From positions 583-64,582 of the forward strand of contig NZ_CADFDU010000005.1 of assembly GCF_902833045.1 (NCBI RefSeq): a stretch of DNA of 64,000 nucleotides. Reading direction: 5' to 3'. This document shows positions 11-49,529 of this stretch, one piece after another. Source of the DNA: Burkholderia sp. BCC0322 (lineage in GTDB: Bacteria > Pseudomonadota > Gammaproteobacteria > Burkholderiales > Burkholderiaceae). Below the pieces are notes generated by a model. It saw only the letters and a program-made list of their open reading frames with translations. It was not told the origin of the DNA and did not search any database. The position numbers were made by a program, and so were the translations under genes. How positions within the stretch are numbered: the stretch's first letter is position 1; each line of letters starts with the position of its first letter.

Positions 11-87
11 TGGTGGGTCTGGTTGGATTCGAACCAACGACCCCCGCCTTATCAAGACGGTGCTCTAACCGACTGAGCTACAGACCC
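11..87 (-). tRNA. tRNA-Ile (GAT anticodon)
   Basis: The minus strand folds as a complete tRNA. It has a 5' GGGTCTG acceptor arm, D-arm TAGCTCAGTCGGTTAGAGC, anticodon loop TTGATAA with anticodon GAT, T-arm GGTTCGAATCC, and an encoded CCA end at the low-coordinate side. It lies in the spacer just downstream of the 16S gene, where Burkholderia rRNA operons normally carry tRNA-Ile and then tRNA-Ala. The rest of the operon (tRNA-Ala, 23S, 5S) would lie beyond the left edge. Confidence 0.97.
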
Positions 88-149: not shown

Positions 150-1685
<1,536 letters not shown>

Positions 1686-20250: not shown

Positions 20251-20730
20251 CTATTCGCCCGGCGGCGGCTGGATCAGCCGCAGAATCCGGGTGTCGTACG
20301 GCGATTGCATGACTTCCGCGATACGGGCCTCGGAAGCGGCCGGATGCAGCGGATTCAGCAGGAAGTTGTGCGCGTGCGGCACGACGACGCTTGGCACGCG
20401 CAGCAGCGCACTCGGCTGCGTGTGCAGCCATTCGGTGCCGGCGCTGCGGGTCCAGTCGACGTTGGTTCGCCAGTCGTCCGGCGCATCGCCCTCCGCGATT
20501 TCGGCGATATCGACCGAATCGGCCACCTCGATGCGAAGCAACTGGTATCCGCTCGGCAATTGCGCGACCGTGGCGATTTCGAAATGAACGAGCGTCTCGA
20601 GCAGCGCGAGCGCCGGATGCTCGGCGAGATACACGACGGGCTGCCCGGCAAAATGCCAGCGCCCGCCGGCACGCAACCCGCCGATGCCTTTCAGGTCGGC
20701 GAAATTGCTGATCCGCCACAGCGTCGTCAA
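20251..20730 (-). CDS. RES-domain toxin (NAD-degrading type)
   Basis: The 159-residue product carries the defining RES residues: Arg6 in LWRIS, GGRW (Arg24), VVYLAEHPALALLET (Tyr34, Glu45) and RVPSVVVP (Ser114) followed by NFLLNPLHP. RES toxins of the ParT/MbcT group deplete NAD or ADP-ribosylate targets. The start is a TTG at 20730 whose bases overlap the antitoxin TGA (TTGA), so translation is probably coupled. An ORF extending further upstream in this frame is antisense-type shadow and is not used. It is paired with the antitoxin directly upstream. Confidence 0.85.
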   Translation of the reverse strand: MTTLWRISNFADLKGIGGLRAGGRWHFAGQPVVYLAEHPALALLETLVHFEIATVAQLPSGYQLLRIEVADSVDIAEIAEGDAPDDWRTNVDWTRSAGTEWLHTQPSALLRVPSVVVPHAHNFLLNPLHPAASEARIAEVMQSPYDTRILRLIQPPPGE

Positions 20731-21182
20731 GCGAAGTACCCCTCGTCGATCTGCGTGAGGACTTCCTCGACGAGCCGCGCGCCATGCTCGGTGCTCGCCA
20801 TGTCGAGCGACGTGCGGCCGCCGAAGCGCTGCAGCCCGTTGCGCAGCCACGCCATCGCCTTGTCCTGGTCGCCGAACGTGGCCGTCGCCTGCGCGACGAT
20901 GCGCGCGAGACGGATCGCCTTGTCGGATTCCTCCTGCGACAGCCGTTCGTGAGCCTGGCGACGATGGCTCAGCGTGCGACGTGGAATGATGAAGGCCAGT
21001 TCGTCCGATTTCAGCCCGCGCTCGGACAGACGGTCGATCACCGAGACGTCGACGCGTGCGCTCGCCAGTTCGGCAAGATCGGCCCCCGATCGGACACGGA
21101 TCGCCAGCAACTGTTCGAGAATCGTGAATTCGGCCTGACGCGGATGCGCGACGCCCGAAGGATGGAAAGCGATGGTGCTCAT
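20727..21182 (-). CDS. Xre/MbcA/ParS-type antitoxin
   Basis: The 151-residue product has an N-terminal Xre-like helical DNA-binding part. It ends with the MbcA/ParS antitoxin (DUF2384) domain: RIVAQATATFGDQDKAMAWL, LQRFGGRTSLDMASTEHGARLVEEVL. It neutralises the RES toxin encoded 3' of it with a 4-base overlap. The ATG at 21182 has GGGAGAGAG about four bases upstream. A longer in-frame ORF to 21482 is not needed. Autoregulation is expected for this class. Confidence 0.87.
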   Translation of the reverse strand: MSTIAFHPSGVAHPRQAEFTILEQLLAIRVRSGADLAELASARVDVSVIDRLSERGLKSDELAFIIPRRTLSHRRQAHERLSQEESDKAIRLARIVAQATATFGDQDKAMAWLRNGLQRFGGRTSLDMASTEHGARLVEEVLTQIDEGYFA

Positions 21183-21209
21183 GACTCTCTCCCGGCAATT
21201 TGCCCAATC

Positions 21210-21226
21210 ATTATAGGCGTTTTGCC
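21210..21226 (-). promoter_or_regulatory. Promoter -10 and possible operator of the RES-Xre operon
   Basis: On the minus strand a consensus -10, TATAAT (21210-21215), lies 27 nt before the antitoxin ATG. Immediately upstream is a short inverted repeat GGC-AAAAC-GCC (21216-21226), placed where antitoxin autorepression could act. No convincing -35 is visible. Confidence 0.5.
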
Positions 21227-21404
21227 AGAAACATGCGAAAGGCCGATGATGAGCGCACCTGTGGTGGTCGTCAGGGTGACGGAGAAGGCGCGAGCGACAT
21301 GACTCATCTGCCTGGAGACTCGCTTCTGTGACTGCGAATCGAAGATTCGCCTGGGGGATGGGGTGCAATCGTTCAGTATATAAAGTCCCGACAAGCATCA
21401 TCCG

Positions 21405-21420
21405 GTTGTCACGTAACAAC
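21405..21420. other. Degenerate parS-like palindrome
   Basis: GTTGTCACGTAACAAC differs by one base (A for G at position 11) from the perfect parS sites near 37.6 and 38.3 kb. It lies about 15.6 kb from the main parS cluster in a noncoding interval. Whether ParB binds it is unknown. Confidence 0.5.
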
Positions 21421-21726
21421 TTTTTAACTGGCTTCATTTGCTCCCATTTCGCCGGTTCATCCTTCCGGACAAGGTGGAGCACACCCCGGCACGGGGAGTA
21501 TCGGGTACGTCATGACGAGTGGAAGCCATTGAACTCTCGTATCGGTAGAAAATCCGGCAGGTAGGGAATCACGCTCCCATACGCGGGTACCTTTTTGCCT
21601 GCGACGCGGCGGGTGCCACAACACCAACCCAACCCGCCCCGCTCGCCTCGACGCCGCCGCCAGCCGCCCCCGTGTCGTCGCGTTGCCCGCGCCACACGTC
21701 GGCCCGGGCCTCGCGCAGTGGTCGAC

Positions 21727-31179: not shown

Positions 31180-32603
31180 CGCTGAACTCTCTTTTCTGGT
31201 TTATCACGGATTGAAAGACCATCGAGATACCGCCCCTGACCCGATCGGTTGTCATGCCGTGTTCGGGACCTGTGCATCATAACCGCGCCGCGAAAAATGT
31301 GGCGCCAACGTGCAAGCGCAGTTGGGGATACACGTATGGGAGAAAACGTGGGGGCGCTCGACCGTCACAGGCAGGGCGAACTGTGTCGCGCGGGTCGGCA
31401 CGCGTGCTGAGCACGCGGCGGCGGAGACGAGAAACGGTCGGGGTACCCGCGCTTCAGTGCCGAGGATGGGTCATGTCCGCGCGGTGCAGTGTGATACGCG
31501 TGACCCATGACTGTTTCATAAGCGGTGCTGCCGGCATGCTCACTCTTGATGTGACCGTTATCAGATCAATCACGATCACCGCGTCAGCAGTCGAACTGTG
31601 TGCCGCGTTGCCAGTCGACGCGGTTCAAGCGACGGTTCCTCCCATAAACGACCACGATTCGGCTTTACGGTAATCAGGGCATGCGCGATCGAATCGCCGC
31701 AGCGCCCAGCGCTCGCTCCGGCAACCAATCGCCGCGCTGTGATGCCATGCGTTACCCGAGCCGGTATAACTCGTCGCCGCGCAGTCCTGTGGTCCGTATG
31801 ACGAAAGGTGTGGACACGTTGCGTGCGGTGAAGAAATCGGCGGGAATCACTTCACGGCTACGCCGACCGTACAGCACCGAGGTCGCCACGCTCGTCTGGC
31901 GATCGTGGCACGTTGGGTCGTGATGTCGCGGCAATGCTTGTGAACCGTCCGATCCCGCTCAGGAACGCATCTCGCAACGTGCGGGGATCACAGGCTTTTC
32001 ATTCCGCGGTTTGGGTCCCCGGAATCCAGGGGGTGTCGCTGCCCGCACAGCATGCCGATTCCCTCGGCCTCGTCTGGCCGGTGAGCTTTTACGGGATCCG
32101 GAACTGTCGGAAGGTGAGGATGTTCGGGATCATCGTTCGAATTCGATTGCGGTGAGCTTCGCGGTCGCCCGCATCTTCACGTTGGTTCACGGCGTGCACC
32201 GGATCGACCCAAGCGCCGGCGATACGTGCCGACAGCGCGACCACCCGGTTCAACTGCGGGAGGCCGTTCCCGGGCCTCTCCTTGTGGCAAGGTCGCACAG
32301 CATTGAACTTGGGTTGGTCGCTCCAAAGGTAGAAAGTTGGAAGGCCGCGGAGGAGCAAATCGAACGGCGTCGATTTCCTCTGTCCACAGCCCACAGGCTA
32401 AATTTGACGAGATGCGCGGGCGGCCAATCGGAAAAACTTGGCCATGGACAGGGAGGCATGAGTGCAAAAATCCCTTCGTCTGCCGTCCCGGATGATTTCA
32501 AACTGCTGTGAACGAAACCAAGGAGATTCGTGTTTCCGGATCGTTGATCTGCCTTGCCGGCTGGTAACAGACGCTGGCGAGGTCACGGCGCCGGGTTTGG
32601 GGT
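31180..32603. other. Gene-poor interval left of the origin
   Basis: Only short ORFs with no family resemblance occur here, scattered over all frames, and composition is more mixed than in the flanks. Two isolated iteron-like words occur (GGATACACGTATGGG at 31326-31340 plus strand, and GGTCGTTTATGGG at 31640-31652 minus strand). No confident gene or pseudogene can be named. Confidence 0.55.
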
Positions 32604-32992
32604 CCCATAAATGGGAACCTGTGCCCGGAAACGGCACTTTCTTCCCGTTTTTCTCCCATAGGTTTCTACGTTTCCGTCGATGTGAGTGGGTACTCACCCC
32701 TTCTGGAGGCCTTGTCGGGCTTGAAGCCAGTGTTGATCGAAGGTCCAAGTCATTGTTTTCAGGCTTGAATCGACGGTTTGAGCCGTCTGAGACACCACAG
32801 ACGGCTACCCATTGGTAGCGGTTTATGGGGTTCGTCTTTCTGCGGAAGCGCACGTGTGTTTACATCTTTTGTAAACCACGTTTACTTCTTTAACTACTTT
32901 TAGACGGCTCACAGCCTTATCTGACAAGGGGTTGACGGGTGTTCGGTACCCATTTATGGGAGCACAGGTGTAAGGGGCTGGGGGTTAAGGTC

Positions 32993-33001
32993 TGTGGATT
33001 T
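32993..33001 (-). promoter_or_regulatory. DnaA-box-like site
   Basis: TGTGGATTT on the plus strand is the complement of AAATCCACA, two bases from the TTATCCACA consensus. It lies among the iterons. Confidence 0.4.
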
Positions 33002-33036
33002 GGGGTTTGGGGTACCGCGTTGTGGGGAATCAGGGT

Positions 33037-33045
33037 TGTGGATAT
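33037..33045 (-). promoter_or_regulatory. DnaA-box-like site
   Basis: TGTGGATAT is one base from TGTGGATAA, the complement of the consensus DnaA box. It lies between iterons 33011 and 33054. Confidence 0.55.
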
Positions 33046-33645
33046 GGGGCAAGCGTACCCGGTTATGGGAAATCGGCCCGGAAACGCGTTGGGTAGTCGT
33101 CTATGGGAATGCCTGTAGGTAGCCTTTTATGGGGCATTTTTTTTGATCCGCGGACGCCGGGTCGCACAGTGCTTTTTCTCTGGTAGCCGGTTATGGGGCG
33201 CCTTAAAGGTAGCCGGTTATGGGTGGCATTTGGGCCGGCTTGGTTGCAAGCCACCACGATTCCCTATGGCCGGTTCCCATGGACAAGATCGATGGCACCA
33301 AAAGGTAACCTTTTATGGGGAAACCAACAGGTTGCCGTTTATGGGAGCGATGTCTGCCTTCAAGGCCAAAATCACCGCATTCAGCGCTGCCGAAGTGGGT
33401 CGATAGGTACCCTCCTGTGGGAATCGGCAAAGGTAGCAAGTTATGGGAACAAAACAGGTCTGTGCTGCAGAGCATCACGAATTCGCGAACCGATCTCGAT
33501 TCCGCACGTTTGCTTCCCATGGATGGTTACCTTGGCCGGGGCAAATCTCATGCCGGGTTTCCGTGTCCGGGCATGAAAGGTAGCGGCTTGTGGGAAGCAT
33601 TTTTGACGAAAGGTAGCTGGATATGGGGCTCCGTACAGGTCGTCT

Positions 33646-33695
33646 GATCATAAATTTTCTTTTAATATCATAAAGTTATACGAGATAGTGCAAGT
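33646..33695. other. AT-rich segment before repA (candidate unwinding element or promoter)
   Basis: The stretch from GATCATAAATTTTC to AAAGTTATACGAG is the most AT-rich part of the locus and sits between the last iteron and repA. That is where iteron replicons place their melting region. It could also hold the repA promoter; a TTATAC -10-like word is present. Confidence 0.5.
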
Positions 33696-33778
33696 AAAGC
33701 CGGAGCAAGGGCGTTGCTCATAGACGTGAAAAGGTATAAAGTCCTCTCTCACCAAGGTCACCTTATCCGGACATTACG

Positions 33779-35095
33779 ATGCCGCGCAAGCCCGCAAGCA
33801 AAGGCTCAGACAAACAGGTTTCGCTGTTTCAGACACCCGAGCCTCCCGACTTGCTGCGCAAGGCGGTCCAGGCGATTCATATCGCGCCCAAGTCTGGAAA
33901 GATCGGTCTGCAGCAGCGCAAGATGTTCAGCTCGCTGATCAAGAACGCGCTTCGACAGGAGGCGTTCGAGCCAGGCCGGACGAGTTTCTCGATCTCGATT
34001 GCATCGCTTTCGCACGAGAGCGGGTTGAACAGTAACAACACGAAGTACGTGAAGGACACGGTCAACTCGCTGATCAGTACCGTCGTCAACTGGGACTACC
34101 TGGCCGCGGATCGGTCGACAGTCTGGAAAGCATCGGGCCTGCTCGCCGGTGCGGAACTCGAGCAATCGGTGCTGAAGTACAGCTTCTCCGACCAGATTCG
34201 CAGCGAGTTGCTCAACCCCGAGATCTACGCACTGATCGATATGCGGATCGCCCGCGAGTTCCGGCGGTCGCACTCGCTCGCGTTGTGGGAAAACACGGTG
34301 CGCTACGAGGGGATCGGTATCACCGCGAAGATCCCGCTGCCGAAATTTCGTGACCTCATTCTCGGCCAGGACAAGGCGTCGCAGTCGTACAAGGAATACA
34401 AGCTGTTCAAGAGCAAGGTCCTGGTGCCGTGCATTCAGGAGGTGAACGAAGTTTCGGATCACACGCTCGAGTTGATCGAACACAAGTCCGGCCGGAGCGT
34501 GGAGGCGGTCCAGTTCAAGGTGACGCGCAAGCAGAGCACCGATACGGTCGAGGACGGCGACGTCAAGAATGAAGCGCTGGTCGAGGAGGTCGCCAAGTTC
34601 GGCATTCCGCGTTCGGAAGCGCGCCGGCTGATTACGCAATACGGTGTGCAGCGCATCAAGGCGGCGATTGCCTATACGCTCAATCGGACTACGAAGAAGA
34701 ATGCGGCCCCGGTCGACAACGTGGCTGCCTATTTCCGCAAGGCGCTGACGCACGGCTACACGCTGTCCGACGGGCAGGGAACGGAGGCGGCCGCTCCGGC
34801 GAAGGAATCCGCGCAGAGCAAGCAGGAACAGATTCGCGACAAATATCTGGCGGCAAAGGTCGAGGAAGCCGGCGCGTATTTCCGCGAACTGGAGATCGAC
34901 GACCAGACCAAGCTGATCGAGCGTTACAACGAGACGGTGGCAGGCTCGAAGGACCTCACGCTGTCGCCGAAGAAGAAGGCGAGCAAGCTCGCGCAGACCA
35001 GCTTCTTCCGATGGCTCGCGCTGGATACGTGGGGCGAACCGACCTCGGACGACTTGCTCGAATTCCTGCTGAAAAGCAGTCTCGCGGGCAACTGA
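33779..35095 (+). CDS. repA: Replication initiator protein RepA
   Basis: The 438-residue product resembles the Rep_3/RepA initiators of Burkholderia secondary replicons. An N-terminal winged-helix pair (about 25-230) includes LQQRKMFSSLIKNALRQ, SLSHESGLNSNNTKYVKDTVNSLI and EYKLFKSKVLVPCIQEVNEVS. A C-terminal helical region (about 260-438) ends TSFFRWLALDTWGEPTSDDLLEFLLKSS. It binds the iterons just upstream and opens the origin. It is convergent with parB. A terminator-like structure lies between the two stops. The ribosome binding site is weak, consistent with limited expression. Confidence 0.88.
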   Translation: MPRKPASKGSDKQVSLFQTPEPPDLLRKAVQAIHIAPKSGKIGLQQRKMFSSLIKNALRQEAFEPGRTSFSISIASLSHESGLNSNNTKYVKDTVNSLISTVVNWDYLAADRSTVWKASGLLAGAELEQSVLKYSFSDQIRSELLNPEIYALIDMRIAREFRRSHSLALWENTVRYEGIGITAKIPLPKFRDLILGQDKASQSYKEYKLFKSKVLVPCIQEVNEVSDHTLELIEHKSGRSVEAVQFKVTRKQSTDTVEDGDVKNEALVEEVAKFGIPRSEARRLITQYGVQRIKAAIAYTLNRTTKKNAAPVDNVAAYFRKALTHGYTLSDGQGTEAAAPAKESAQSKQEQIRDKYLAAKVEEAGAYFRELEIDDQTKLIERYNETVAGSKDLTLSPKKKASKLAQTSFFRWLALDTWGEPTSDDLLEFLLKSSLAGN

Positions 35096-35189: not shown

Positions 35190-36221
35190 TTACGGCTGCG
35201 TGGCCGTTGCCAACTCGGCAACGTACGCGTCGATGACGGTCTTGAGCTTGTCGGCGAGCGCCTCCTGGTGCGATGCGTCGACGCCCTTGAGCTGCAGATC
35301 CAGGCGTCCGTCCGGATAGGTCTTCAACTGGCCGATCGCGCGCGATTCGAGCGCGAAGTCGTGGCGAACGCTGTAGCGCGTGCGCCCCGCTTTCTTGCTG
35401 CCGTCGCTCTGCGCACGCAGGAAATTTTCCAGGTCTCGAACCGATTTTTTCCGGTCGATCACGGCCGTCAACAGCCGGTCGGCCGTCGGCTCGCCCAGGC
35501 GTTCGAAGATCAGCTTCAGGAAGTACGCCGCCTGCAGGCCGACCACGTCGTTCGCGCTCGCCATCCGTTCCAGGAGGGTGTTCGGGAGCGCGTTGAGCGA
35601 CAGCGTCTTGCTGATCGAAGCCTTGTCCTTGCCGATCTTTTCCGCCAGCGTGTTCTGGTCGGAAAAGACCTTCTCGTCGAGGAGACGCTTCCACGCGACC
35701 GCATCGTCGAAGATCGTCTGGCGTTCGTGGTCGTGGTTCGCACGATACGCGATCGTGTAGAGCTGCTCGGGGGTGTGATCCGTGCGAAACGTGGCGTTGA
35801 TGGTTTCATCGCCGTTGATGCTCGTCGCGCGGAGCCGGCGTTGCCCGTCGATCACCACGAGCTTGCTGGGGAACTCCGGGAGCCGCGTCACCTTGATCGG
35901 CTCGATCTGCCCTTCCCGTTTCAGCGTCAGCGCGAGCTCGTGCAGGCTCGACTCGGAGTAGAACACCCGCGGGTTGAACGGATTCGGAATGCAATCCTTG
36001 ACCAATACCTTCTGAGGCGCGCCAAGATCCGGCGTGCTGGAGGGCGTCGCTGCGGCCGGGACGCTGACGGGCGCCGTCTCGCCGACGACGTTCGGTGCGA
36101 TCGCCGGTTCGGGCAGCCGCGTTTCGAGGGCCGCATTTTCCTGCGCGAGCCCGCGCAACAGGCCGGCTGCGAGATGGAGGTTGCCGGTCGGCTTCTTGTC
36201 TTTCGAAGTGTCCTTAGCCAT
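35190..36221 (-). CDS. parB: Chromosome partition protein ParB
   Basis: The 343-residue product has an unstructured N-terminus (1-65). The ParB CTP-binding core follows, with IPNPFNPRVFYSESSLHELALTLKREGQIEPI and VVIDGQRRLRATSI. The central HTH is TLAEKIGKDKASISKTLSLNALP (about 195-217), and a C-terminal dimerisation region follows. It binds the parS sites near 37-38 kb and works with ParA to segregate the replicon. Its start overlaps the parA stop by 8 nt, so the two genes form one operon (parAB) with translational coupling. Confidence 0.93.
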   Translation of the reverse strand: MAKDTSKDKKPTGNLHLAAGLLRGLAQENAALETRLPEPAIAPNVVGETAPVSVPAAATPSSTPDLGAPQKVLVKDCIPNPFNPRVFYSESSLHELALTLKREGQIEPIKVTRLPEFPSKLVVIDGQRRLRATSINGDETINATFRTDHTPEQLYTIAYRANHDHERQTIFDDAVAWKRLLDEKVFSDQNTLAEKIGKDKASISKTLSLNALPNTLLERMASANDVVGLQAAYFLKLIFERLGEPTADRLLTAVIDRKKSVRDLENFLRAQSDGSKKAGRTRYSVRHDFALESRAIGQLKTYPDGRLDLQLKGVDASHQEALADKLKTVIDAYVAELATATQP

Positions 36222-36909
36222 GGGCGGCTCCGGTAGCGCGCGTCGACGCGATGTATTGGGCCATTTCCGTGACCAGCTTTTCGATTTCCGCCCGGGCTTC
36301 TTTCAGGCCTTTCAGGTATCGATTGTGGTGGTGGATCGTGGTGCCGAGCGCAAATGTCTGACGGTAGACCTCGCGTTGCGCGATCTGGCTGTCGAGCAGA
36401 TGCTCCCCTATTTCTTCAGCCCTTAAAATTTTTAAAATTTCTTCACGCATTTTAGTTTTTCCATTAACACTATTCAGCATTAATGCGGAAGAAAGATTCG
36501 GGTTACGGACGGATCGCATCGACTCAATCATGCGGATCATCGCGACGGTGCTGTAGAGATCGGCCGGCGACGGCGACAGCGGCACGAGGCAGAAGTCGGC
36601 GACCTCGAGCACGGAGGCAATTCGCGGATCCTCGAGGTTGCCAGGGCAATCGACAACAATGACGTCGAAGTTCGCGTCCTGTTTCTTGATCTCGCCGCCG
36701 ATGCCGCGACCGGCAGGGGCCAGAGAAAGAACCGTCATCGGCAACGTGTTCTCGCCGCTCGTCACCCACCGGACGGACGTGCCTTGAGGGTCGGCATCGA
36801 TCAGGGCGACTTTGTTGCCGCCGGCTTCGAACGCAGCGGCGATATTGACGGAGATGGTTGTCTTTCCAGTCCCACCTTTTTGATTACTGACGGCGATCTT
36901 GAAAGCCAT
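36214..36909 (-). CDS. parA: Chromosome partition ATPase ParA
   Basis: The 231-residue product is a small Walker-type ParA: deviant Walker A QKGGTGKTT (10-18, with signature Lys11), Walker A' DADPQGTS, and Walker B-like VIVVDCPGN. It lacks the N-terminal HTH of plasmid type Ia ParA, so it resembles chromosomal or type Ib ATPases. It should form ATP-dependent nucleoid gradients that move ParB-parS complexes. It is first in the parAB operon. The stretch around 36415-36485 is locally AT-rich (TTTAAAATTTC on the plus strand), an odd composition for this genome but in frame. Confidence 0.92.
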   Translation of the reverse strand: MAFKIAVSNQKGGTGKTTISVNIAAAFEAGGNKVALIDADPQGTSVRWVTSGENTLPMTVLSLAPAGRGIGGEIKKQDANFDVIVVDCPGNLEDPRIASVLEVADFCLVPLSPSPADLYSTVAMIRMIESMRSVRNPNLSSALMLNSVNGKTKMREEILKILRAEEIGEHLLDSQIAQREVYRQTFALGTTIHHHNRYLKGLKEARAEIEKLVTEMAQYIASTRATGAAHG

Positions 36910-37004: not shown

Positions 37005-37020
37005 GTTGTCACGTGACAAG
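37005..37020. other. parS site 1
   Basis: GTTGTCACGTGACAAG matches the palindrome GTTGTCACGTGACAAC except for the last base. It lies 96 nt upstream of the parA start, so bound ParB could also affect the parAB promoter. Confidence 0.85.
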
Positions 37021-37028
37021 TGGGCCAA

Positions 37029-37238
37029 ATGGCCAACGAGTCCGTGGCGACTGGTGGTCGAGTAAAAATAAAATTGGCGATCACGATTGAAGAATGCGTG
37101 CGAGGATCGAGAGCAAATTCGGCGGATTTCAATGTTGACGGCGGCGTTAGCGAGTGGCGAGAGGCTGCTGATCTCGTAGTGTTCCTGGCAGAACTCGTCG
37201 CAGCCGCAATCAATCAATTAATTTCATGGGGGCCATGA
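37029..37238 (+). CDS. Possible small hypothetical protein
   Basis: A 69-residue ORF (MANESVATGGRVKI...) contains a plausible amphipathic helix (EWREAADLVVFLAELVAAAINQLI). It has no clear ribosome binding site (GTGGGCCAA precedes the ATG), begins 9 nt after a parS site, and resembles no family I know. It may be chance. Confidence 0.3.
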   Translation: MANESVATGGRVKIKLAITIEECVRGSRANSADFNVDGGVSEWREAADLVVFLAELVAAAINQLISWGP

Positions 37239-37244
37239 AACTCG

Positions 37245-37260
37245 GTTGTCACGTGACAAG
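37245..37260. other. parS site 2
   Basis: GTTGTCACGTGACAAG, identical to site 1 and one base from the perfect palindrome, 240 bp to its right. Confidence 0.85.
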
Positions 37261-37396
37261 TAGCAGAGGCTTGCTCTTTCTCAAGCAATCCGGCGCCAGG
37301 AAATTCTTGATTCAATCGCGCTTCCGGTTATAGCGAGATCATTCCGATGCCCGAAATACTGTCTTTGGCTCGGTGCGGCCACTTCTCGTGCGAGGA

Positions 37397-37412
37397 GTTG
37401 TCACGTGACACC
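37397..37412. other. parS site 3 (imperfect)
   Basis: GTTGTCACGTGACACC keeps the 14-base core TTGTCACGTGACA with one mismatch at the penultimate base. Confidence 0.75.
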
Positions 37413-37566
37413 AATTCAGGACGGAAGGCAACGTCTGTGCGGAATCGACTCTCAGAGGGCGTTGTGATCGGACTCCATTGAACGTGAGGAAGTAGATCGC
37501 GAACGATGAGATTCGCTGCCGTTGGCTCGTCACGAGATACACCTTTTTGGCCGAATTGGCTGGCGA

Positions 37567-37582
37567 GTTGTCACGTGACAAC
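37567..37582. other. parS site 4 (perfect)
   Basis: GTTGTCACGTGACAAC is a perfect 16-bp palindrome. Confidence 0.92.
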
Positions 37583-38267
37583 CGGTGTGTTGTCTCGGAG
37601 ACCTTCAGTGTCGAAGTGCCGGGTTGCGCCGCCTGTAGGGACGGAAGCACCGGTCTTGAAAAGTCTGAGTCACCAGTTGGTCTGCAACCGCTGGTCTCAA
37701 TTGCAGACTGTTCGCAGCCATGCGACAGCGGAAAGGTTGTTGAGCTAACACCGGGGGATGTGCATCACTGGAGTCATTGATGTGTCCCCATTTATAGAGG
37801 GTGTTCAGATCGCCGTCGTCGTGCGAGTTGACCGGCAGGGGAGGGTATAGGCTTTATCGTGCGTACCCCGGAGTTGCGACCAGTGCGGGCGGGGGCTGCT
37901 ACGCTCAACTACACATCAGAGGCTCCGATTTGCGACAAATTTCGGGGTTGAAGGCCCTCCGGCAACTCCAACGGGCCGGATCGTGAAACATTTACGAGAA
38001 ATTCGGTGCTCGGTGAAATCCTTATGTGGCAATGAGTTGCGCTCTATTCTTCATGTTGTTTCACGCGAAATCAACAAGATCATCCTTGTAAATAGGGGCG
38101 CATGCCCATTTCATAGGCTTCATTTCAACGCAGGTGCAAATACACTGCGAAATGTATTTGTAATACGTGATTTGTAGTATTTGATACGTACCAAGCCAGT
38201 CTAGTACCGTAGATACATTGAACAGAGGTGAATCAGTTCGATGTGCTGCGCCGATCTATCAGCGCGA

Positions 38268-38283
38268 GTTGTCACGTGACAAC
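38268..38283. other. parS site 5 (perfect)
   Basis: GTTGTCACGTGACAAC is a perfect 16-bp palindrome, 700 bp to the right of site 4 and the outermost of the cluster. Confidence 0.92.
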
Positions 38284-45201: not shown

Positions 45202-45235
45202 CCGCGTCGTGAAAGGGGGACGAGACGGATCACAA

Positions 45236-45251
45236 GGTGACCGTTTATGGG
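45236..45251 (+). repeat. Isolated iteron-like word
   Basis: GGTGACCGTTTATGGG matches the 16-bp iteron consensus of the origin except for G at position 4, yet lies about 11.6 kb to its right, at the end of the VOC pseudogene. Confidence 0.45.
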
Positions 45252-45255
45252 GCGT

Positions 45256-48537: not shown

Positions 48538-49529
48538 TGCGATGCTCCTGCTGCGCGGGCGGCCGTGCCGGAAGCCGTCGATACAGGCGTGACGGCCGAC
48601 GAAGCGCCGGCGGCTGCCGCCGATGCACCGGCTGCAGGTTTCGCGTTGTCGTTGCGGCGCGTGTCGGCTTCGCGCATCGAGACGGTCGCGGTGCGGCCCG
48701 CGATCATCCGGAAATCGTCGGGCACTTCGTCGAGCACCACGCGCACCGGTACGCGCTGCGCGAGCCGTACCCAGCTGAATGCCGGGTTCACGTTCGGCAG
48801 CAGGTTCGCGCCCTGCGTGCGGTCGCGATCCTCGATCGCGGCGACGATGCTCTGCACATGGCCGCGCAGCGCACGCGGCTCGCCCATCACGATGATGTCG
48901 ACCGGCTGGCCGATGTGGATGCCGCGCAGCTTGGTTTCCTCGAAGTAGCCGTCGACGCGGAACGAATTGCGATCGACGACCGACAGCACCGCGCGGCCGG
49001 CCGGCACGTATTCGCCGACGCGCGGCGCGCGGTCGTTCAGGTAGCCGTCCACGGGACTGACGATCGTCGTGCGCTGCAGGTTCAGCTTCGCCGTGTCGAG
49101 CGACACCTGCGCGTCCGCGACGGCGGCTTCGCCCTGTTCGACGCGCGTGCGGCTTTCCTCGACCTGTTCGCTCGCGACCAGGTTGCCGAGCTGCAGGTTG
49201 CGCGCGTATTCGCGCTTCGACTGGGCGAGCGTCGCGCGGCGCTGCGCGAGCGTGGCTTCGGCGAGCCGTTCCGCGAGCGTGTAACGGGCCTGGTCGATCA
49301 CGAACAGCACCTGGCCGCGCTTGACCTCCTGGTTGTCGGCGACTTGCACCGACGTGATGAGGCCCGCCACGTCCGGCGCAACCTGGATCACGTCGGCGCG
49401 CACGTGACCGTCGCGGGTCCACGGCGAGAACATGTAGTAGTTGACGATGCGCCACAGCACGATGGCAGCCACGACGACGACGATCAGGGTGAGCAGGATT
49501 TGCCCTGCCGAGAGCCAGGTTTTTTTCAC
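48534..49529 (-). CDS. HlyD-family periplasmic adaptor (AaeA-like)
   Basis: The 331-residue product has one N-terminal membrane anchor (about 10-30), a biotinyl-lipoyl/barrel-sandwich fold (VAPDVAGLITSVQVADNQEVKRGQVLFVID and TIVSPVDGYLNDRAPRVGEYV), a helical hairpin (about 85-140), and a beta-barrel ending in an Ala/Ser-rich tail. It links the FUSC inner-membrane protein to the outer-membrane factor. The gene is one base after the DUF1656 stop, within the operon. Confidence 0.9.
   Translation of the reverse strand: MKKTWLSAGQILLTLIVVVVAAIVLWRIVNYYMFSPWTRDGHVRADVIQVAPDVAGLITSVQVADNQEVKRGQVLFVIDQARYTLAERLAEATLAQRRATLAQSKREYARNLQLGNLVASEQVEESRTRVEQGEAAVADAQVSLDTAKLNLQRTTIVSPVDGYLNDRAPRVGEYVPAGRAVLSVVDRNSFRVDGYFEETKLRGIHIGQPVDIIVMGEPRALRGHVQSIVAAIEDRDRTQGANLLPNVNPAFSWVRLAQRVPVRVVLDEVPDDFRMIAGRTATVSMREADTRRNDNAKPAAGASAAAAGASSAVTPVSTASGTAARAAGASQ

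Follow-up and report, generated by a model that had tools for sequence, protein, structure and literature searches.

The closest described system is the origin of the third replicon (c3, or pC3) of Burkholderia cenocepacia J2315, for which the iteron consensus was given as tCCCATAAacggntACCtnt (Du et al. 2016; PMC4948915). As described there, this origin combines a repA-like gene, a cluster of iterons and par genes, and the legend of the S1 Table already marks iterons in reverse orientation, notes that more repeats occur genome-wide and, for c2, names a second cluster. The terms ‘26 bp’, ‘doublet’, ‘titration’ and ‘handcuff’ are absent from the main text of that paper. No other paper on c3 iterons was recognised among the literature matches listed; PMC2324101 deals with repA and parB of the group on chromosome 2, and its accessible text does not contain the word ‘iteron’.

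More distant relatives are plasmids F, P1, RK2 and pPS10, which share with the present locus a winged-helix Rep, direct iterons, an AT-rich block and DnaA boxes (here DnaA-box-like sites). The examples in a review carry 2–7 iterons per origin, and the same source states that, in the initiator of R6K, WH1 and WH2 touch separate short motifs (PMC4980987). Plasmid F is reported to be controlled by autorepression, titration and pairing of Rep-bound arrays (PMC13028717). Chromosome II of Vibrio cholerae, a secondary replicon, carries initiator-site words in addition to the iterons in its origin, and these outlying sites start ~40 kb from that origin (PMC3937223).

The locus compared here has the same parts as that of J2315, including iterons in reverse orientation. 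A related Rep was found in 34 loci, 33 from Burkholderia (94–100% identical) and one from Paraburkholderia (70%), and the iteron array was present in all 34, two of which come from records titled ‘chromosome 3’. Rep was also at least 95% identical in seven Burkholderia plasmid records of 0.55–1.26 Mb. The traits found in common with c3 are the J2315 consensus, the near-identical Rep, the adjoining parAB and parS-like sites of the c3 type. At the sequence level, the locus also has the features of Rep_3-type replicons, namely an initiator with WH1 and WH2, an AT-rich block with short repeats, and a repeat array next to rep, for which repeats of about 17–22 bp are usual and the present word spans 16–18 bp. 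Unlike the 2–7 iterons of the review examples, the Burkholderia loci carry 15–18, spaced 20–139 bp apart and partly inverted.

The iteron array and its word

The window, i.e., the whole stretch of 64,000 nucleotides that was analysed, contains 18 copies of the word at 32603–33628, 14 direct and 4 inverted, as located by a pattern and a weight matrix. The pattern GGTANCNNNTTATGGG with up to two mismatches gave 19 matches in the 64 kb, compared with 0.78 expected in the whole window from shuffled sequence. Sixteen matches (14 on the forward strand and 2 on the reverse) fell inside 32604–33627, and 7 of these 16 had no mismatch. The weight matrix was trained on the 16 matches, which makes their own high scores a matter of construction, and located 18 copies in the array region at a score above 13 (14 forward, 4 reverse); the two inverted copies found by the matrix only, at 32654 and 32793, scored just 13.3 and 14.8. 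The count of about 18 copies in ~1 kb upstream of repA, made in a first-pass annotation, was therefore accurate, with the array lying before a gene of the Rep_3 family. Elsewhere in the window there were three pattern matches (21576, 45236 and 56224) and five matrix hits above 15 (21575, 31640, 45235, 49039 and 56223). The array is a clear density peak, yet the word is not restricted to it; a density equal to that of the array was not seen elsewhere in the window.

The word had been called unusual, which did not hold. Since the published c3 consensus is its reverse complement, the array is, judged by this match, the known c3 origin in another strain. Strong conservation of the TTATGGG half was confirmed, the exact motif being present in 10 of the 16 copies matched by the pattern, but this half is not exceptional: G2 and T3 are invariant in 16/16 copies as well as T13, G14, G15 and G16, so the left pole is conserved as strongly as the right.

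The array opens with inverted copies, of which iteron 1 (32604–32619, reverse strand, matrix score 26.6) marks the left edge and has a counterpart in 34/34 loci; iterons 2 (32655–32670) and 3 (32794–32809), also on the reverse strand, are the degenerate matrix-only copies, the latter in a poorly conserved block (0.63). Direct copies supported by both pattern and matrix follow at 32814–32829, 32945–32960, 33011–33026 and 33054–33069 (iterons 4–7). Iterons 8–15, likewise direct, form four doublets with a 26-bp interval: 33092–33107 with 33118–33133, 33182–33197 with 33208–33223, 33304–33319 with 33330–33345, and 33406–33421 with 33432–33447. Iteron 16 (33516–33531) is inverted and lies towards the right edge, with a counterpart at about −264 in 34/34 loci, and direct iterons 17 (33579–33594) and 18 (33612–33627), found by pattern and matrix, complete the array. 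The annotation had described the spacing as irregular, at about 26–100 bp. It is indeed mixed, but start-to-start distances range over 20–139 bp and are not random. The 26-bp interval accounts for 4 of the 17 in the window array and ranked first among the intervals between direct copies of 32 loci, with 126 counts against 37 for the runner-up. The order of the 15–18 copies is nearly constant across the 33 Burkholderia loci, and the Paraburkholderia locus has 12. In an alignment of 33 sequences, mean conservation was 0.90 for iteron columns and 0.71 for spacers, with 48% and 16% of columns invariant, respectively; two loci (L029 and L034) from the same genome as a third (L005) were omitted from this alignment and from the pooled interval counts.

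At least three inverted copies had been noted, and four were found. The two at the edges (iterons 1 and 16) are retained in 34/34 loci, and their columns average 0.92 and 0.91 compared with 0.57–0.73 in the 18 flanking bases on each side. Such conservation would be expected if the inverted copies served antiparallel pairing (handcuffing) of sister origins, as the annotation had suggested, although it indicates use in general and not handcuffing specifically. Looping between the ori and incC iterons of plasmid F is described, in the parts of PMC13028717 that deal with it, without inverted copies being named as required. Moreover, inverted copies predominate in an Acidovorax plasmid (see below), so the family has no fixed orientation of its copies relative to rep. 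We consider this role of the inverted copies unlikely.

The initiator gene, its surroundings and other origin elements

The rep gene (33779–35095, forward strand) encodes a 438-aa Rep_3 initiator with matches to WH1 at residues 39–172 (PF01051, E 1.2e-10) and WH2 at 202–247 (PF21205, E 3.4e-10), both past the Pfam cut-offs. A sequence search of the PDB with Rep gave no significant hit, the top ones being weak with unrelated names and RepE appearing at E 0.07. On the reverse strand, parB (35190–36221) adjoins rep and is followed by parA (36214–36909). Beyond these genes, five parS-like palindromes of the form GTTGTCACGTGACAAC, with 0–1 mismatch, were located within 37005–38283 (at 37005, 37245, 37397, 37567 and 38268), the pattern having been assembled from positions given in PMC5450999 and not from a printed sequence. 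Cumulative GC skew changes direction at ~28–30 kb of the window. At the left end of the window, a full-length 16S rRNA match (151–1683, reverse strand) and a tRNA-Ile (11–87, reverse strand) indicate an rRNA operon ~30 kb from the origin; these 16S rRNA and tRNA matches were the RNA families found in the window at the gathering threshold, with none in the origin.

A conserved AT-rich block at 32858–32919 (GC 0.35 at 32860–32919), inside the array, contains the 12-mer direct repeats GTTTACATCTTT and GTTTACTTCTTT and is likely the unwinding element. A second AT-rich block at 33640–33699 (GC 0.27) holds an 11-mer direct repeat (ATCATAAATTT and ATCATAAAGTT) and is less conserved. Two conserved DnaA-box-like sites lie on the reverse strand, TGTGGATTT at 32993–33001 (2 mismatches, spotted by eye) and ATATCCACA at 33037–33045 (1 mismatch); the window has no more one-mismatch matches to the DnaA box than chance would give (3 found, 3.14 expected). 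Directly before rep, at 33754–33764, the mostly conserved AAGGTCACCTT was spotted by eye as inverted half-iterons; comparable to the inverted repeats before repE of plasmid F, it is a candidate operator for autorepression of rep. A consensus scan of 32500–33800 found no promoter of the sigma-70 type. Between inverted iterons, a largely conserved inverted repeat (GTGAGT-4-ACTCAC, 32682–32697) is possibly a site for another regulator.

The word can be followed well beyond this group. The layout of two Paraburkholderia relatives is much as in the window array, and a Paraburkholderia plasmid with a Rep 73.5% identical carries 17 words scoring above 11, of which one is inverted, and has three pairs at 26 bp. 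The frame AGGT-N7-TNTGG is present even in plasmids with Rep just 37–50% identical. Where Rep is 47–50% identical (two Cupriavidus plasmids, P. acidisoli and B. vietnamiensis G4), the centre of the word is mostly AGGTGAAC, most copies keep AGGT and TNTGG seven bases apart, and both Cupriavidus plasmids again show 26-bp pairs. The word of an Acidovorax plasmid (Rep 37.6%) resembles AGGTCCACGTTTATGGGA, with 7 of its 8 copies scoring above 11 in inverted orientation to rep. Over this wide range the poles persist and the centre changes, a pattern that fits a word read by two domains. The two-part recognition proposed in the first-pass annotation is consistent with these findings, in that a word with two invariant poles, set in a fixed frame, would face a Rep with two winged-helix domains, the usual Rep_3 arrangement.

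Taken as a whole, we read the region as the Rep-driven origin of the third replicon (c3/pC3) of a B. cepacia complex strain, with a probability of about 0.93. The reading is based on the WH1 and WH2 domains of the Rep_3 protein, the c3 consensus, the presence of the array in all 34 loci, the conservation of its iterons, the parAB genes and parS-like sites, the GC skew, the AT-rich 12-mers with the DnaA-box-like sites, and the similar layout in Paraburkholderia. Points against it are the promoter scan, which gave nothing of the sigma-70 type, the chance-level number of DnaA-box matches, the by-eye choice of the candidate operator and the lack of a significant PDB hit for Rep. The annotation had likewise proposed an iteron origin upstream of a repA-like gene, and the Rep_3 domains, the array in every locus and the conserved iteron columns bear this out for an origin that was already published. 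Building on the word, layout, conservation and gene identity, which were established directly, we infer the following steps. Rep monomers would bind the iterons, with WH1 and WH2 each reading one pole (AGGT and TATGGG), and Rep together with DnaA would melt the AT-rich block inside the array. Rep dimers probably repress rep at the inverted half-iterons before its start codon. As in other replicons with iterons, two processes would limit copy number, the titration of Rep and the pairing of Rep-bound arrays.

Iteron-like sites outside the origin

The top matrix score among 30 first-order random sequences, each as long as the window, was 17.5, and of the hits outside the array just two exceed it, 21575 (20.5) and 45235 (21.2). 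An EamA transporter gene ends 34 bp short of the site at 45235–45252 (forward strand), which lies 11.5 kb after the start of rep. The neighbourhood of this site was searched in 32 genomes and examined in 30, two genomes (G020 and G021) having given short weak matches alone. A counterpart scoring at least 19.9 was found 29–51 bp past the gene end in 25 of these 30 genomes, which makes it one type of outlying iteron word conserved between species, and 5 were without it. Over 26 sequences, the columns of the site average 0.91, compared with 0.63 and 0.49 in the 50 flanking bases; the flanks diverge between genomes and do not align. On seven c3 replicons, including that of the window, the site is 11.3–12.4 kb from the rep start. 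In B. pyrrocinia, with annotated genes, the gap that holds the counterpart is convergent, which argues against promoter control. By analogy with V. cholerae chromosome II (PMC3937223), 45235 is a candidate titration or handcuffing site, and its replication probably increases titration, an effect reported for the sites there.

The site at 21575–21592 (reverse strand) is 12.2 kb upstream of rep. Its gap was matched in 24 of 32 genomes, all 24 of which were examined, and holds an iteron-like word in 6 of these 24 other genomes and in locus L061. A lone parS-like palindrome (21405–21420, 1 mismatch) lies 170 bp from this iteron and ~16 kb from the main parS group. A gene with an Xre/MbcA/ParS-type antitoxin domain is located at 20727–21482 (reverse strand). 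In B. pyrrocinia, an antitoxin gene of this type adjoins a RES-domain gene ~24 kb upstream of rep. A lone parS-like site with 1–2 mismatches was also observed upstream of rep in 4 of 5 50-kb c3 stretches (L035, L036, L038 and L039) and in L061. Closer to the array, a weak site at 31640–31657 (reverse strand, score 15.2) is 2.1 kb upstream of rep, and 29/34 loci carry a site on the minus strand between −1.6 and −2.15 kb, most scoring near 15. The case for the hit at 49039 as a dispersed site is weakened by its counterpart in L035, which lies inside an annotated HlyD gene. Some of the distal sites may already be tabulated for J2315, given that the legend in PMC4948915 mentions genome-wide repeats.

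The distal copies, 45235 among them, could also be chance matches or remnants without a role, with the origin array alone being of importance. Three of the five distal hits in the window (15.2, 15.8 and 16.5) are within chance reach of the first-order null, whereas 2 Mb of third-order random sequence contained nothing above 15. A backward-pattern control gave 15 hits in seven c3 records, compared with 23 real hits outside the origin, and with up to two mismatches in the whole MS389 genome it gave 217 hits against 102 real ones; distal word counts alone do not clearly exceed this control. Among the recurrent distal classes, long open frames enclose B, C and F, and E looks coding by eye; together with the 15 against 23, these classes weaken replicon-wide enrichment of the word as proof of dispersed function. 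Both c3 records of B. multivorans have zero distal hits at up to one mismatch. Non-origin hits at this threshold are nevertheless concentrated on c3 in MS389 (7 of 9) and B. anthina (6 of 8), where c3 makes up ~15% of the sequence and many of the hits are shared by descent. The retention of 45235 in 25 genomes, past the end of a gene and amid unalignable flanks, also argues against chance, although the site is missing in 5. We give the absence of any role somewhat under even odds.

A further set of 1–4 iteron-like words, outside the window, is found 105–213 kb upstream of rep, at up to one mismatch in 6 of 9 c3 replicons. It was present in 25 of the 30 genomes examined (out of 32). Nineteen of the 25 show a pitch of exactly 26 bp, equal to the doublets of the origin, and ATGGGA is conserved at 0.96–1.00, both of which are at odds with the alternative that the words form a hairpin terminator or the target of an adjoining AraC-type regulator instead of a Rep site. 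That alternative, to which we give an even chance, draws on the position of the array, which directly follows an AraC-family gene at its 3' end, and on the sequence of the array: perfect hairpin arms of at least 7 occur in 5 of 39 copies, compared with 11 of 533 origin copies, and 40 of 54 pooled copies (filtered for a CC-bearing centre) have G or A at position 3, where 527 of 533 origin copies have T. The partner copy is weak in many of the pairs (scores 11–14). Because of the hairpins, the changed position 3 and the AraC neighbour, we treat this remote array as ambiguous and do not claim it as a sure Rep site.

Like c3, V. cholerae chromosome II is a secondary replicon that combines origin iterons with outlying initiator-site words, but its RctB sites are backed by ChIP-chip, EMSA and copy-number tests (PMC3937223), whereas those of c3 are known from sequence alone. 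For a crtS-like element, no c1 word at up to one mismatch was shared by MS389 and B. anthina, a search that a differently sequenced site would escape; each had one c1 hit at this threshold, and the words differ. One word shared on the other large chromosome is not a convincing crtS-like candidate either; it scores 12.8 and lies in a 420-codon open stretch.

The origin itself was known, and what is added here is a precise map of its doublets, edge inverted copies, unwinding block and candidate operator. We tentatively propose, with less than even confidence, that the dispersed c3 sites (11–12 kb after rep, ~2 and 12 kb before it, and the array 105–213 kb upstream) titrate or handcuff Rep soon after initiation. 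The shortlist of off-origin sites, one of them well conserved, allows direct tests of the restraint on a plasmid-type origin in a replicon of 0.55–1.26 Mb. If the proposal is true, these sites would act as a brake like datA and would have helped an origin of plasmid type become chromosome-like in the B. cepacia complex.
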